Origin: Halococcus qingdaonensis
GTDB taxonomy: Archaea; Halobacteriota; Halobacteria; Halobacteriales; Halococcaceae
Length of the DNA stretch: 64,000 nucleotides
NCBI RefSeq assembly: GCF_024508235.1
Contig: NZ_CP101943.1
Coordinates: 1-64,000, forward strand
Direction of reading: 5' to 3'
The notes under the pieces were generated by a model. It did not search any database. It had not been told where the DNA came from and worked only from the letters and a program-made list of their open reading frames with translations. Both the position numbers and the translations under genes were made by a program. Shown here in pieces: positions 16,660-48,915 of this stretch (its first letter is position 1; each line of letters begins with the position of its first letter).

Positions 16660-18456
16660 CTACATCGACTCGGGCGCGGCGACGCCGAGCAGGCCGAGCG
16701 CGTTCGCGACCGTTCTCCGGGCTGCGGCCACGAGCGCGAGGCGCTGTCTGCGCACCTCCCCGTCGGCCGAGAGCACGGGACACTCGCGATAGAAGGCGTT
16801 GAACGCCTCGGCGAACGTGCGCGTGTAGGTGGCGACGACGTGTGGGGCGAGTTCGTCGGCCGCGCGCTCGACGACCGCCGGGAATCGTGCGATCACTTCC
16901 AGTAATTCGCGTTCCTCGGCGGTCGTGAGCTCGCTTGCATCGACGATTTCGGGCGCGTCGTCGGCTTCCTCGGCCTCGTCGTCTCGCGGCGGGACCGCTC
17001 GACCCCCCGAGGCGCGTTGCGCCTCGCTGAGAATCCCGCAGGTCCGTGCGTGGACGTACTGGACGTACGGCGCGCTCTGGGCCTCGAAATCGAGCGCACG
17101 CTCCCACTCGAAGGTGATCGACTTTGCGGGCTGTTTCGCCACGATGTCGTAGCGCACCGCGCCGATGCCCACCTGGCGGGCGATGCGCGCCACGTCCTCC
17201 TCGTCGAGTTCGTCGTCGCGGATCCGCGAGTCGAGTCGTGATTCGACCTCCTCGCGGGCGCGCTCGATCGACTCGTCGAGCAGGTCGTCGAGATCGACGC
17301 CGGTGCCCTCGCGGGTGCTCATCCCGCCCTCGGGAAGGTTGATCCAGGAGTAGTAGACCGAATCCAGCTTGTCGGTATCGTTGCCGAGAATCGAGAGCGT
17401 CTCGCGGAGCTGTTCGGCTTGGAGTTTGTGATCCTCTCCCAGTACGGTGACGGCGCGATCGAAGTTGTCGAACTTCCACTCGTGGTGGGCCAGATCGCGC
17501 GTCGTGTAGAGGCTGGTCCCGTCCGAGCGGAGGAAGACGAGGTTCTTCTCGAAGCTCGGCAGTTCGAGCTGCCAGGCATCCTCCTCGTAGACGGCGTATT
17601 CGGTGTCCTTGAGCCGCGCGACGAGATCGTCGGTGCTCCCGTCGCGAATGAACCGGGTCTCTTTGACGAATTCGTCGAAATCCACGGGCAGGCGCGCGAG
17701 CGATTCGCGCATTCCCGAGAGTACACCGTCGACGACCGCCTCGACACGTTCGTAGGTCGCCTCGTCGCCCGCTTCGAGTCCTTCCAGAATCGCACTGATC
17801 TCGTCCTCGGCGTTCGCGCGCTCGCTCTCGCTGGCCTCGTCCAGGAACTCGTTGCCCTTGCGGTAGTAGCGCACGAGGTCGTAGTCGCCGCGCTCGCGCT
17901 CCGGATCGGGGAGGTCGCTTTCGGCGAAGGTCTCGTAGGCCCACGTGAACACGGCCATCTGCCGGCCGGCGTCGTTGACGTAGTAGTGACGCGAGACGTC
18001 GTAGCCGGCGAAATCGAGCACGTTCGCGATCGCGTCGCCGACGATAGGGTTGCGCGCACGGCCGACGTGGACGGGGCCTGTGGGGTTCGCGCTCGTGTGT
18101 TCGACGACGACCGTCTCGTCCTTCGCGTCGAGTCGGCCGAACCCCTCGTCACCGGCCGCCTGCAGGGTGTCGTCGTAGTAGGCCGGCGAGGGGTGGAAGT
18201 TGACGTACGGCCCGGACTGCGAGACCGATTCGATGTAGTCGTACTCGGTGGGATCGATCTCGGCGGCGAGATCGCCGGCGATCTCCGGCGGCGGTGCACC
18301 CACTTCTGCGGCTAGCCGGAAGGCGACGCTGGAGGCGAGCACGGCATCGACGGATTCGGGCGGGTCTTCGATCCCGGGGTCGGTCGGTTCGACGTCGAGC
18401 GCCGAGAGCGCGTCCGACAGCGCCGCCGCGACGTCGGCGCGAAACGAGAGGAACAT
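16660..18456 (-). CDS. argS: Arginyl-tRNA synthetase
   Basis: A 598-residue class I ArgRS. The HIGH signature appears as [12 protein letters not shown] (near residue 129) after NPTGPVHVG; the KMSKS-equivalent loop is [11 protein letters not shown] (near 380); the C-terminal anticodon-binding domain ends with [13 protein letters not shown] 18456 (MFLSFRADV) is preferred to upstream in-frame codons because it begins the conserved N-terminal additional domain. Length is normal for archaea. The next gene upstream on the same strand is a small membrane protein. Confidence 0.96.
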
Positions 18457-39302: not shown

Positions 39303-40862
39303 TCAGGCGAGGAACACGTGCCGGGGCCGATCGGCGAGCACTTCGCGGCCGAAAGAGACCGTCTCGCGGAACTCGTCACTGCGGAAGAAGGCCATCGCGT
39401 CCTCGCGCGAGCGCCACCGGCTGGCGATGAACATGTCGTTCTCGTTCTCGCGGTTGACGAGCAGGTCGGTCTCGTCGTGGCCGTCCATCTCCGCGAGCAG
39501 ATCGGTGACGGTATCGAACCGCTCGACGAACGCCTCGCGCTGGTCGGGTTTGGTCGTGTAGAACATCCCCATCGTGCCGAACCCGTCGTCGCCGTCGCCG
39601 CGCCCACGCGCGACGATCCCCGGGAGATCGGAGAGGAAGCCGCCGGCCGTCTCGGCCGCGCTCGCGGTGTCCCAGATGCTGACGACTGCCGACTCTCCAC
39701 CGTCGGTGCTCGCGGTTTCACCGTCTTCTCGCGGGCTTTGCCCGCTCGAACGGTTCGCGGAGCTTCGCTCCGCGCTACTCGCATCCGAGGCGCTTCGCGC
39801 CTCGTTATTGCCGTAAACGGCGGTCTTCACGTGTGTATCGTAGTGCTCGAAGTTGCCGCGCAGTCCGGAGACGTCGTCGGCGAGTTCGTCGGGATCGGCC
39901 TCGGAGTAGAGCACCATCGCGTGGACGTCCTCGCCGTGGGGCTGGCCGGCATAGATCCCTTCTTCGTCGAGCACGTCGCGGACCGTCTCGCTCTCGTCCT
40001 CACTCGTTTCGTCCCCGTGATCGCCGTGTGGACTTCCCTCGCCGTGGCTCGTGTCCGCGCCGGCGTGATGATCGTCGCCGGTCGGGACCGGTTCGCCGGC
40101 AAGCACCGCGCCGAGGTCTTCGGGCGGGAACCGGCGACCGAACCGGAACCGACCGAACTCGCCGAAGCGCGAACTCGACGGGTCGAAGCGCATCTCGTAA
40201 AGCAGTTTCTTGATCTGTGCGGGGTCGTCGGCGAACAGCGTCACGCCCCACTCGTAGTCGTCGAGGCCGACGCTGCCGGTGATGATCTGCGTGACCTTGC
40301 CCGCGTAGTCGCGCCCGATGTCGCCGTGGCCGCTCATCAGGTCGGCGCGCTCGTCGAAGGGGAGGTCGTACCAGTTGTTCTCGGGCCCGCGGCGCTTGTC
40401 CATCGGATAGAAGGAGACGTACTCGCTGTCGGGGATGTCTGGCTCGAGCCGGGATTCGATGTAGTTGGCCATCCCCGTGTCTTCGACTTCCTCGCCCTCG
40501 AAGTATTCCTGTGACATGTAGCCCGACACCTCGGTCACGGAGAGATACGAATCGGTCTGCTCGGTGAACCCGGCGAAGGCCGTCTGTTCGAACCGGCGCT
40601 CGGCGGTGTCGAGGTCTGCGATCGACGGTCGGAGGTGGAGGAGCATGAGGTCGGCATCATGGCCGAGAACGCTGAAGACGGCCGATCCACCGGCATCGGC
40701 GTCCGTGAGTGCCTCGTGATCGCGGAGATAGTCGACACCCTCCTCGATGGCGCGGTCGCGCTCGCGCTCGGGGGCCGCCCGCCAGCCGTCCCAGTCGATA
40801 GTCCGAAAGTCGTGGAGCACGTACCAGCCTTCCTCCGTCTGCGGTGGCTCTCGTCGACTCAT
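39303..40862 (-). CDS. pitA: PitA-like chlorite dismutase/HemQ-family protein fused to ABM domain
   Basis: A 519-residue haem-binding protein of the haloarchaeal PitA type. Residues about 5-235 are the chlorite-dismutase/HemQ fold: GWYVLHDFRTIDW, SFYPMDKRRG, and the likely proximal His in LMSGHGDIGRDYAGKV. A His/Asp/Gly linker (about 240-265) follows, then a second alpha/beta region (VHAMVLYSEADPDELADDVSG...SIWDTASAAETAGGFLSDLPG) and an antibiotic-biosynthesis-monooxygenase-like end (ENDMFIASRWRSREDAMAFF). A Ser/Arg-rich stretch near 353-378 is encoded by a cluster of perfect hairpins. The HemQ role (coproheme decarboxylation) is probable. ATG 40862. Confidence 0.85.
   Translation of the reverse strand: MSRREPPQTEEGWYVLHDFRTIDWDGWRAAPERERDRAIEEGVDYLRDHEALTDADAGGSAVFSVLGHDADLMLLHLRPSIADLDTAERRFEQTAFAGFTEQTDSYLSVTEVSGYMSQEYFEGEEVEDTGMANYIESRLEPDIPDSEYVSFYPMDKRRGPENNWYDLPFDERADLMSGHGDIGRDYAGKVTQIITGSVGLDDYEWGVTLFADDPAQIKKLLYEMRFDPSSSRFGEFGRFRFGRRFPPEDLGAVLAGEPVPTGDDHHAGADTSHGEGSPHGDHGDETSEDESETVRDVLDEEGIYAGQPHGEDVHAMVLYSEADPDELADDVSGLRGNFEHYDTHVKTAVYGNNEARSASDASSAERSSANRSSGQSPREDGETASTDGGESAVVSIWDTASAAETAGGFLSDLPGIVARGRGDGDDGFGTMGMFYTTKPDQREAFVERFDTVTDLLAEMDGHDETDLLVNRENENDMFIASRWRSREDAMAFFRSDEFRETVSFGREVLADRPRHVFLA
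39731..39804. repeat. Cluster of four palindromes inside pitA
   Basis: Four perfect hairpins in 74 bases: 39731-39745 (gcgggc, loop ttt, gcccgc), 39747-39757 (cgaac, g, gttcg), 39756-39774 (cgcggagc, loop ttc, gctccgcg) and 39786-39804 (cgaggcgc, loop ttc, gcgcctcg). They encode the Ser/Ala/Arg-rich insert of PitA on the minus strand. Confidence 0.9.
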
Positions 40863-44991: not shown

Positions 44992-46917
44992 ATGGCAGAC
45001 AACGCGGAGACGTCCGGAACTATTTCGTTCGACGAGCGATCCGAGGATCGCACACCGATCGCTCCCGATTCCAACTATCGACTCGGGACGATCGCCGTGC
45101 TCGCCGGTGTCATCGGGCTTCTGGCCGGCATCATCGCGTTTCTCATCTACCATTTCATCGGCTTGCTGACGAACCTCTTCTTCTATCAACGAATCGCCTT
45201 CGAGTTCGTCACGCCGCCGAACGCGGGACTCCCGATCTGGGTCGTACTGATCCCGGCGATCGGCGGGTTGATCGTCGGACTGCTGGCGAAATACGGGACG
45301 CCGCGGATCCGCGGTCACGGCATCCCCGAGGCGATGGAGGCGGTCTGGGACAACGACAGCGAGGTCGAACCCCGCGTCATGCTGTTGAAACCGATCTCGG
45401 CCGCCATCGCCATCGGGACGGGCGCGCCGTTCGGCGTCGAGGGCCCGATCATCCAGACCGGTGGGACGATGGGATCGGTCATCGGCCAGTACATCCCCAC
45501 GACGGTGGCCGAGCGAAAGGTGCTGCTGGCCTGCGGCGCGGCGGCGGGGATGGCCGCGACGTTCAACACGCCGATCGCGGGCGTGCTGATCGCCATCGAA
45601 CTGCTGCTGTTCGAGTTCCGGATGCGGTCGTTCGTCCCGCTGAGCGTCGCCAGCGTTATCGCGACTGCCGTTCGTCGCCAACTCCTTGGCACGGAGCCAC
45701 TCCTCCGGATCGGTGATCTGAGCTACCAGCTGCTCCCGAATCTGCCGTTTTTGCTTGTGCTCGGCGTCATCCTGGGGCTGGCGACCGTCGCCTTCAAGCG
45801 CGGCTATTTCGCGGTCGAGGACCTGTTCCACGGGTTCCCGGTCGGGAACGTGCTCCTGCCGGCGATCGGCGGCCTCATCCTCGGCGTGATGGGGCTGTTC
45901 GTCCCGCGCGTGCTCGGCGTCGGCTACGAGGTCACGAGCGAGATCCTCCAGAACGAGCTTTCCATCGGGCTGCTCCTGTTGGTCGTGATCGGGAAGGCGA
46001 TCGGCGTCTCCGTGACGCTCGGGACGCGCACGTCGGGTGGCTTTCTCGCGCCGATGTTCGTCATCGGAGCCGGCATCGGCGGCGCGTTCGCGCTCGCGGT
46101 GAACGCGCTCGTCCCCGGCGTGACGCTGCCGGTCGGGCTGTTCGCGCTCACCGGTTTGGGAACCCTGTTCGGCGTCGCCGGCGGCGCGACGTTCGCGCTC
46201 GTGCTCTTCACTGTGGAGGTGACCCAGCAGTTCGCGGCCATTCTGCCGGTGTTTCTCGTCGCGGTCGTCGCCGACGGCGTGGCCTCGATCTATCTCCGCA
46301 ACTCCCTGATGACCGAGGAGCTCACCCGGCGCGGGATCGACATCTACCAGGAGTACGAGGTCGATCCGCTGAAGCGCTTCACCGTCGCCGAGATCATGGA
46401 CGAGCGCCCGGTGACGATCCGCCCCGACGTGACCGTCGCCGAACTGGTGAACGAACTCACCAGCGACGAGCCATCCGTCGCCCGTTTCACTCCCGAGACC
46501 GACGGTGACCAGCCGGATGCCCTCGACGAACCGGGCGAATCGGGGACGACACCCGGCCAGACATCCGCACTGACGCTTCACGAGGGGCTCCCGATCGTCG
46601 ATCCCGACGAGGGTCTCGTGGGGATCGTCACTTATGGCGACCTGCTTCGGGCGAGCTCCAACGACGGCGCGGACATCACCGTCGCCGAAGCCGGGACGAC
46701 CGATGTCGTCACCGGCCACCCGGACGAACAGCTGTTCGAGGCCGCCGTCCGGATGTCCTCGAACGATCTCGAACAGCTCCCGATCGTCGACCGTGACAGC
46801 GGCGATCTCTTCGGGCTGGTCGACTCGCAGAACCTGATGGCATCGGCGATGCGACAGCTCGAGGACGAGCAGGTTCGCGAGACGGGGAAGCTCGATTTCG
46901 GTCGTGGACCGCTTTGA
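44992..46917 (+). CDS. ClC-type chloride channel/transporter with CBS domains
   Basis: A 641-residue protein. Residues about 35-435 are the ClC bundle: GHGIPEAMEAV (near 110), GAPFGVEGPIIQTGG (near 145-159; the gating Glu is kept, the usual Lys/Arg of GKEGP is Val), GGFLAPMFVIGAG (near 350) and GATFALVLFTVE. Residues about 470-630 hold two CBS domains (MDERPVTIRPD, DVVTGHPDEQ) around a linker of Gly/Asp/Glu. The stop codon lies at the border with the IS200/IS605 right end, so the C-terminus may be shortened. ATG 44992 is chosen over GTG 44974. Confidence 0.9.
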   Translation: MADNAETSGTISFDERSEDRTPIAPDSNYRLGTIAVLAGVIGLLAGIIAFLIYHFIGLLTNLFFYQRIAFEFVTPPNAGLPIWVVLIPAIGGLIVGLLAKYGTPRIRGHGIPEAMEAVWDNDSEVEPRVMLLKPISAAIAIGTGAPFGVEGPIIQTGGTMGSVIGQYIPTTVAERKVLLACGAAAGMAATFNTPIAGVLIAIELLLFEFRMRSFVPLSVASVIATAVRRQLLGTEPLLRIGDLSYQLLPNLPFLLVLGVILGLATVAFKRGYFAVEDLFHGFPVGNVLLPAIGGLILGVMGLFVPRVLGVGYEVTSEILQNELSIGLLLLVVIGKAIGVSVTLGTRTSGGFLAPMFVIGAGIGGAFALAVNALVPGVTLPVGLFALTGLGTLFGVAGGATFALVLFTVEVTQQFAAILPVFLVAVVADGVASIYLRNSLMTEELTRRGIDIYQEYEVDPLKRFTVAEIMDERPVTIRPDVTVAELVNELTSDEPSVARFTPETDGDQPDALDEPGESGTTPGQTSALTLHEGLPIVDPDEGLVGIVTYGDLLRASSNDGADITVAEAGTTDVVTGHPDEQLFEAAVRMSSNDLEQLPIVDRDSGDLFGLVDSQNLMASAMRQLEDEQVRETGKLDFGRGPL

Positions 46918-46926
46918 CATCCTCCC

Positions 46927-46940
46927 CGCCCTGAAGGGCG
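46927..46940 (-). other. Right-end hairpin of the IS200/IS605 element
   Basis: cgccct / agggcg with a two-base loop ga, inside the commonly seen haloarchaeal end cctccccgccctgaagggcg. It should be the TnpA recognition hairpin and the 3' part of the TnpB guide RNA. The guide would be taken from the flank, that is, the last bases of the ClC gene. Confidence 0.75.
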
Positions 46941-46969
46941 AGGATTCCTCCGGTGGGGATTCGGACGGC

Positions 46970-48265
46970 CTACGCCGTCGAACCTACGGAAATCTTTTGC
47001 TGGTACGCACGAACCTCATTGGGACGAGAGTGTGGTAGCTCTGACCATCGGTGGTCGTCCCACTTGAGGCGTGCAGGCCGTGCCATCGACCCAACTTCGG
47101 CGTTCGTCTGTTGTGCGAGGAACTTCGCCGAAGCGTCCAAATCGGCGTGTCCCTCGTAGCCGCACGGACACCAAAACGAATCGCCTGACCGAACGGTGTC
47201 CTCCCGTTCGCCACACTCGGGACATTCCCGCGTGGTGTTCGCTTCCGGTTTCACTTCGACTGTGATACCGAACTCGGCGGCAGTGTACGCGAGCCGGTTG
47301 ATGAACGCCCGGAACGCCCAGAAGTTGTGCGTCTTTGCGTTCACTTCGACCGACCAGTGCTTGTCGAGAACGCCCTTGAGAGCGCCGACGTACACCGTCG
47401 AAACGCCTTCGGAGTGTAGGCGCTCCATCAGGTCGCGTGCGAGAGCGTCCTGTGCGTGGTCGCGCCGTCGAGTCCGCCGCCGGTACAACCGCTGTATCCT
47501 GTCGCTCGAATACCGCCCTTCGCGGAGCTTCGATTGGTACTCGGCGATGTCGTGGGTCGTCTCGCGGAAGCGGTCGAACAGGTCGCGTCCCTCGTACAGC
47601 AGTTGTGTTCCGGTGGTCGTACTGCACGCAACGAGATTGTTTGCGCCCACATCCAGAGCGGCGGAGTCGTCCGCCAGTGGTGAATCCAGTCGAGAATCTT
47701 CGATTGTGACTGGTTGAATTGCTCTGAATTGGTCGCTCATCTCGTCGTAGTACAGTTCGAGCTGCCCGGCTTCGCCGTCCCACTTTGGGTCGCCGTGAAC
47801 GTCGAGACGGAGACGTTCGCGGTAGCCGATGTCGTACTCCTCTTTCAGTTGCTTCCCGACAGGGACATCGAGGATGGACTGTTCGCGGTTGCCCGACGCC
47901 CATCGGAGCGTGTACTGGTCACTCCGAATATACGTTCGCAACTCCCGTCCACCATCCTCGTTGCCCCAGTAGCCGGGAAGCCCGTTCGCTTCCCCGCTCT
48001 CTTTGAGCTTGAAGAACGAGCGCCACGCTTGGTCGTTCTTTCGCACTACCTGTTGGGCGGTCGCCGAACCGACGACACCTTTGTATTCGCCGTAGTGGTC
48101 GTCGGCTTCCCAAATCGGTGCGTCGATGTCCGGGTCGGTGAGATACTGTCGTCGCCCGTAGTTGGTTTCGTTCCACAGGGACGCGGAAGCGTCCAACAGC
48201 CGCCGAAGGCACTCCGCGTCCGATTCGGAGCGGGGAACGACCCGGAACGTATTGACTCGTCGCAT
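46970..48265 (-). CDS. tnpB: TnpB, IS200/IS605 RNA-guided nuclease, possibly inactive
   Basis: A 431-residue TnpB. RuvC I is [10 protein letters not shown] (near 202-211) with Asp; RuvC III is GHADLDAS (near 376-383) with Asp; a zinc finger (CPECG, then CPCG, about 351-371) precedes it. The RuvC II position reads [11 protein letters not shown] (near 296-306), where relatives have an acidic residue (VGDL or IEDL); here it is Ala. This would remove a catalytic residue, though the alignment is by eye. TnpB, guided by RNA from the right end, normally cuts DNA at the donor site to keep the element. Full length, 3 bases from tnpA. Confidence 0.85.
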
Positions 48266-48268
48266 GGG

Positions 48269-48655
48269 CTACGCGCGCCCCTCCTGCTGTTCTTGCTCTT
48301 TGATGTACTGTTCGATGGCATCCTTCGAGATGCTTCCGGCGGTCCCGACGTAGTACGAGCGCGTCCACTTGATGCGGTCGTGATTCCGCTGATTGTAGTA
48401 CCGTGCAGAGATGCCTTTGAGCCAGTTCACAAGCAGCGAGGGCGCGTTTTTCGGCGGACTCCCGACGAACAGATGAACGTGGTCTGGCATGATTTCGGCC
48501 TCGGCCAATTCGAGACCTTTGTCCTCGCATATCTCCTCGAAAATCGTTTCGAGTTGATTCTGTCTCATGCCAACGAGTACCGGCTGTCGGTACTTCGGCA
48601 CGAACACTATGTGGTAGTAGAGTTCGTAGACCGCGTGACGGGTACTCTTTGGCAT
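48269..48655 (-). CDS. tnpA: TnpA, IS200/IS605 Y1 (HUH) transposase
   Basis: A 128-residue single-strand transposase. The HUH motif is [10 protein letters not shown] (near 55-64), and the catalytic Tyr is in IEQYIKEQ (near 116-123). Its length and the RYYNQRNH...[10 protein letters not shown] segment are typical of IS200/IS605 TnpA, which cuts and joins the hairpin ends as a dimer. The TATA-like gcttaaacg lies about 28-34 bases upstream. It appears functional by sequence, so the element may still move even if TnpB is not active. Confidence 0.9.
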
Positions 48656-48775
48656 CTCTGCATACTATGGGTGGCCGGACGCTTAAACGTCCCGGCTGAA
48701 CCCCAGTTCGGCTACTGCCGGGCAGTTGTCGGTTGCATACTACCACGGGAAAGCTTACGGCGCGTATCCCCGTCC

Positions 48776-48855
48776 CGAGAACGCTTCGCGTTCTCGTGTG
48801 CGAACGAATCGCAGAGCGATTCGTCAACGCCGTGAACGGCGAGGCTTTGCGCCTG
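48776..48855. repeat. Tandem hairpin cluster between IS element and uspA
   Basis: Four hairpins in 80 bases: 48776-48796 (cgagaacgc, loop ttc, gcgttctcg), 48804-48824 (acgaatcgc, loop aga, gcgattcgt), 48828-48841 (cgccgt / acggcg) and an imperfect 48842-48854 (aggc / gcct). The first two have 9-base perfect stems. It resembles the clusters at 9810-9877 and 39731-39804. It is 60 bases before the uspA start and not part of the IS200/IS605 end by sequence. Confidence 0.85.
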
Positions 48856-48915
48856 TCTTTCACGTAACTCGTTTCGACCCCCTGTTTTTCGTGACTCCGT
48901 GCCGTAGGGAGCGCC

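Follow-up and report, generated by a model that had tools for sequence, protein, structure and literature searches.

A dispersed family of two-hairpin palindromes with in-frame copies in haloarchaeal housekeeping genes

The heme-biosynthesis gene pitA of a Halococcus genome (2.70 Mb; G000 below) contains an in-frame insert that, in all likelihood, is one copy of a dispersed palindromic two-hairpin family nested within another, coding insertions of this family persisting in one reading frame only. Copies of the family are scattered over the genomes, are present in some species and missing from others, where empty sites are found, may be nested in each other, and show a frame bias in genes. Across the order, this dispersed palindrome appears to add peptides repeatedly to archaeal proteins, in many unrelated housekeeping genes. 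The first-pass annotation had suggested an archaeal family of gene-invading palindromes resembling those of Rickettsia, and the dispersed copies, the empty sites, and the fixed reading frame bear this out. For its other suggestion, a role of RNA folding in translation, the support seen here is the strong predicted fold.

The window (the whole stretch of 64,000 nucleotides that was analyzed) includes pitA on the minus strand, at positions 39306 to 40862. This host gene is found in a single copy in G000, has 519 codons as used here, and encodes a coproheme-decarboxylase-like (Chlor_dismutase) domain and an ABM domain. In Haloferax volcanii, a delta-pitA strain is viable but grows less well under aerobic conditions (PMC5746218). 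Judged by pitA, the nearest named relatives of G000 are H. thailandensis and H. morrhuae. A cluster of four hairpins in a 74-bp stretch inside pitA had been noted earlier. Those of 6, 8, and 8 bp are found exactly there, at 39731 to 39745 (6-bp stem, TTT loop), 39756 to 39774, and 39786 to 39804 (8-bp stems, TTC loops), and the fourth is the 5-bp hairpin CGAAC-G-GTTCG near position 39747. The location of the cluster and the four hairpins named thus stand, whereas its total and extent have to be revised: a fifth hairpin, CGGT-TTC-ACCG at 39713 to 39723, was overlooked and belongs to the insert, which spans 99 bp (39708 to 39806). The 141-nt region around these hairpins folds better than its dinucleotide shuffles both as RNA (z = -5.1) and as DNA (z = -4.7), and none of 200 shuffles folds as well. 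The pitA hairpins are real and far above chance. Single hairpins of 7 to 9 bp are common in this GC-rich window, so the length of the pitA hairpins is by itself unremarkable; the TTC/GAA triloop and the clustering are the unusual features. Triloop hairpins of this type with stems of at least 8 bp occur 15 times in 464 kb versus 1.0 expected in Markov sequence, an approximately 15-fold excess.

The whole insert (minus strand, 39708 to 39806) corresponds to residues 353 to 385 of PitA (NEARSASDASSAERSSANRSSGQSPREDGETAS). Its outer portion is a 45-bp unit of the type AGCGAGGCGC-GAA-GCGCCTCG GATGCG AGCGGT-GAA-ACCGCGAGC, split into a left part at 39778 to 39806, with hairpin 1 (CGAGGCGC-GAA-GCGCCTCG) at 39786 to 39804, and a right part at 39708 to 39723, with hairpin 2 (CGGT-GAA-ACCG) at 39713 to 39723. 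The split is caused by a 54-bp unit of like design, located at 39724 to 39777 on the same strand, which consists of TAG, the hairpin CGCGGAGC-GAA-GCTCCGCG, a spacer, the hairpin GCGGGC-AAA-GCCCGC, and GAGAAGA. The pitA gene of G008 contains the outer unit alone, without the inner 54-bp unit. The nested arrangement is also seen in a gene unrelated to pitA: in G008, the gene for an FAD-linked oxidase (L436) carries SAERSSADRSSGQGPREDGGTAS, nearly the same combination of inner and outer units as in the window's pitA.

Alignment of pitA from G000 and ten relatives shows that residues 353 to 385 are missing from the proteins of the closest Halococcus relatives, G009, G001, and G004, with exact flanks and with codons contiguous across the junction; these proteins are 92 to 97% identical to that of G000 over the first 352 residues. 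A 45-bp insert occupies the identical position in G008, G005, and G007. The first-pass annotation had asked whether a matching Ser-rich segment is present in all PitA orthologues. It is not: the loop is short across 96 orthologous reading frames (some of them from duplicate genomes), the only carriers being G000, three other Halococcus, and a species from another family (G055, locus L038), which has the insert in the same loop. In a tree built without the insert columns, the carriers fall into three separate lineages, the AU test rejects a single clade of carriers (p = 3e-33), and the presence or absence of the insert amounts to three changes on the Halococcus tree. This recurrence at the exact same position, in three Halococcus lineages and another family, could also result from short-tract recombination or repeated loss. 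Horizontal transfer of the insert with long flanks was considered and rejected; the flanks are native to within ~10 bp. In an AlphaFold model of PitA (mean pLDDT of 70), the insert lies between two strands, pLDDT falls below 50 at residues 356 to 388, and the 33-residue loop is predicted to be disordered.

Of 295 Halobacteriales genomes, 172 contain an exact 19-mer from the second hairpin of the unit (CGAGCGGYGAARCCGCGAG), and none contains a match to the reversed control. A covariance model trained on 44 units detects 17 copies in G000 and up to 46 in one genome; 30 of the 41 related genomes are positive. The genome search for similar hairpin clusters inside genes that had been proposed earlier thus returns dispersed copies, including one in argS of the same window. 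Noncoding DNA lies on both sides of 21 of 52 model matches, and the palindromic repeat is dispersed in both intergenic and coding DNA. Hairpin 1 shows compensatory changes at 7 of its 8 pairs; it was chosen as a perfect hairpin, which makes its 100% pairing a matter of construction but not the diversity of its pair types. In hairpin 2, a Y-R pair covaries although the search pattern permitted mismatches. The coding unit is 45 to 60 bp long and has no overall terminal inverted repeats. The palindrome unit has no match in Rfam or in phage records. Viral contigs from the whole collection contain only 3 exact matches to the 19-mer, so viruses are no evident carrier. Another sequence, GGAGCTTCGCTCC, was discarded as a family marker because 4 of its 6 genome matches share a single repeated gene context, interpreted as a transposase gene, and reflect coincidence.

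Several other hairpin arrangements were observed. A modular intergenic class (L214, L223, L227, and L216-L231) has the form GTCGTT-[hairpin]-TGATGA-[hairpin]-AACCAC with up to four hairpins, which are interchangeable (CGAAAGRCGC-GAA..., CGAAACGGC-GAA..., and CGAGAGAGC-GAA...). At an intergenic site that appears to be orthologous among G000, G001, and G004, one species has a GAA loop and another a TTC loop, as would be expected if individual hairpins were inverted. Tandem arrays of hairpin units with a 54-nt period are found at G070:C1:67530-67690 (L143, with coding flanks) and G278:C1:838150-838330, in three and four copies. The pattern CGAG..GCGAAGC..CTCG has 103 matches in G017, the highest number among 79 genomes, versus 5 for the reversed control.

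The reading frame of the genic copies is strongly constrained. With flanks called coding by a simple codon-usage score (threshold of 12), sites with two coding flanks invariably have the unit on the coding strand, with a common right-flank frame at 30 of 31 of them. A second sample was drawn with the covariance model instead of the exact 19-mer; all 18 of its copies that have two coding flanks show this same strand and frame. These 18 copies represent ~13 protein families and are not all independent; the chance of ~13 families agreeing on one of six frames is <1e-8. A frame-compatible spacer length is found in 17 of 19 coding versus 3 of 25 noncoding copies (Fisher p = 2.6e-7), and two plasmid genes annotated by others contain the unit in the same frame. 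The frame used encodes a net acidic SEARSAS-x-SGETAS-like peptide (SEARSASDASGETAS) and is the only one of the six that is clearly acidic, the remaining readings being basic, neutral, or interrupted by a stop. The hosts are ordinary enzymes from over a dozen unrelated housekeeping families, including PitA, ArgS, UvrC, SufBD, SBP56, GatE, FBPase, TrpA, MoeA, IlvC, RibB, CarB, iPGM, and others. The open frame suggests that the insert is translated as part of the host protein. We infer that the frame bias is due to selection rather than insertion and that host proteins with the insert remain functional.

The second coding unit of the window is located at 16982 to 17028 (minus strand) in argS, a single-copy gene of G000 for arginyl-tRNA synthetase (16663 to 18456, minus strand). 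This covariance-model match is a net insertion of 48 bp when compared with G009 and G001, whose argS genes lack exactly 48 bp at this site. The start of the unit, AGCGAGGC, is already present in the empty target, which suggests that short homology is involved in insertion. In G063, a member of another genus, UvrC contains the unit, which is absent from six congeners and from other genera. In the MoeA genes of two genomes (L260 and L347), one region contains the unit, and the context looks similar in L262 and L263; this might be a second case of recurrent insertion, like that in pitA.

Positions 46914 to 48867 of the window contain an IS605-type transposon with an intact-looking TnpA (48293 to 48631) and TnpB; its left end is TTAC and its right end is TCAA. 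A two-hairpin element of ~56 bp (48772 to 48827, no strand assigned) lies inside the transposon's left-end palindrome, which is intact, without the element, in another G000 copy of this transposon (L380). One or two near-terminal IS605 palindromes are split in this way in G000 (48772 to 48827 and L389), the element being related to the coding unit.

It appears unlikely that the units are terminal-only IS200/IS605 derivatives (PATE-like) or REP/REPIN elements that are moved in trans by Y1 transposases (TnpA/RAYT). Some PATEs of Haloquadratum are indeed terminal-only forms of 52 bp that have two palindromes and lack a target duplication (PMC3119063), and G000 encodes one TnpA, the one described above, and about 12 TnpB proteins. 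In addition, 16 of 50 units have TAG before hairpin 1, versus a background of 0.5%, which recalls the GTAG-tagged REPs (PMC3733652) and hints at an element end; the complete GTAG is seen in 6 of 50, and both are far over background but not general. However, the left ends of the local IS605 elements are TTAC or TTAT and their right ends TCAA, unlike those of the units, and several unit-rich genomes have no Y1 at all (G003, with 46 units; G017, with 44; G008, with 27), whereas G025 and G027 have Y1 but no unit. A search for the mobilizing enzyme by comparing unit counts with Y1_Tnp matches across genomes revealed no correlation (rho -0.02, p 0.88). Given their present distribution across genomes, Y1 transposases are not required. 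No clean target duplication that would define the unit ends was found.

The palindromes might instead be kept for a function in mRNA structure, such as translation pausing or stability, and not as tolerated insertions. The very low z score of the predicted RNA fold and the perfectly paired stems with compensatory changes, hairpin 1 having been preselected as perfect, would fit such a role, but the DNA fold is equally strong, Rfam contains no counterpart, and many matches have noncoding DNA on both sides. The closest relatives have no insert at the pitA site, so no function is conserved there, and this explanation is very improbable. Perfect stems, short loops, and the occurrence of either loop orientation in orthologous intergenic hairpins are also what local template switching (fold-back synthesis) would produce in place; yet the same two-hairpin unit, with its spacer and end motifs, is found at unlinked loci in many genera. 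Such switching is not enough alone and has a very slim chance of being the explanation, although it may still reshape inserted copies. That a nonmobile, ancestral coding segment of pitA and other genes was precisely deleted in most lineages is scarcely credible: the shared pitA position in several lineages is in its favor, but the segment is absent from close relatives in argS, uvrC, and pitA and from most of the order, and the same sequence is found in unrelated genes and intergenic DNA.

A dispersed palindrome family with copies inside genes has counterparts elsewhere. Rickettsia palindromic elements (RPEs) are short elements found between and inside unrelated genes, where they are in frame and add a peptide to housekeeping proteins (PMC10969869, PMC3733652). 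The haloarchaeal family resembles them in its dispersal over intergenic and coding DNA and in its in-frame insertions that are absent from close orthologues, but RPEs are described as ~150 bp long and from Rickettsia, whereas the two-hairpin units described here are 45 to 60 bp long, archaeal, and order-wide. The likeness is one of behavior; common descent is not claimed because the host phylum and GC content differ. GTAG/CGTC REP dimers are found inside bacterial genes, including uvrA and uvrB, and their termini sometimes supply TAG stop codons (PMC3733652). They too are intragenic two-hairpin repeats, at times nested in other palindromes (PMC3733652), but GTAG is present in only 6 of 50 haloarchaeal units and, in contrast to the REPIN-RAYT systems, copy number is independent of Y1/RAYT. 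The text of PMC3733652 describes no archaeal family of intragenic REPs. The nearest haloarchaeal repeats are SMR-A/B and PATEs of Haloquadratum, which are short, transposase-free, and without target duplication (PMC3119063). PATEs differ in that the unit ends do not match the local TTAY...TCAA ends of IS605. SMR-A inserts into near-terminal palindromes of IS605 elements (PMC3119063), as does the element at 48772 to 48827, a relative of the coding unit. By its description, however, SMR-A is ~110 bp long and has prominent terminal inverted repeats, with no in-frame coding insertions described (PMC3119063); the longer intergenic clusters of two to four hairpins are nearer to it than the coding unit is.

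According to the proposed mechanism, two-hairpin DNA elements of ~45 to 60 bp would spread through haloarchaeal genomes and enter intergenic DNA, palindromes of other mobile elements, and genes. They would move as DNA, probably passing through a hairpin of single-stranded DNA or a cruciform and using short homology to the target, and purifying selection would follow. A genic copy would persist only if the frame is kept and the unit is read in one of the six ways, the tolerated frame yielding a soluble, net-acidic peptide, rich in Ser, Ala, Glu, and Gly, that would fit a halophilic protein and be placed in a flexible surface loop. In pitA, a first copy would have been inserted and a second would then have entered the first, producing the 33-residue loop. 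A target preference may explain why one pitA position and other palindromes have received insertions more than once. The fuller proposition, of an order-wide family that moves independently of Y1, favors hairpins or sites of short homology as targets (its own copies among them), and is preadapted for translation, is tentative and falls a little short of an even chance.

A literature search, with subscription journals and supplements outside its scope, found no earlier description of a coding palindrome family in haloarchaea. Rickettsia and some REP-rich bacteria already provide examples of palindromes that invade genes in frame; here, the phenomenon extends across an archaeal order and into single-copy housekeeping genes. 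Presence or absence of copies between species that differ by a few percent provides a clean natural experiment on the gain of loops by proteins. Archaea with genetic tools (Haloferax and Haloarcula) offer a chance to ask what moves these elements, a question that the similar Haloquadratum repeats raise as well. If the one tolerated frame indeed encodes an acidic flexible linker, such palindromes would continually supply halophilic proteins with new surface loops.
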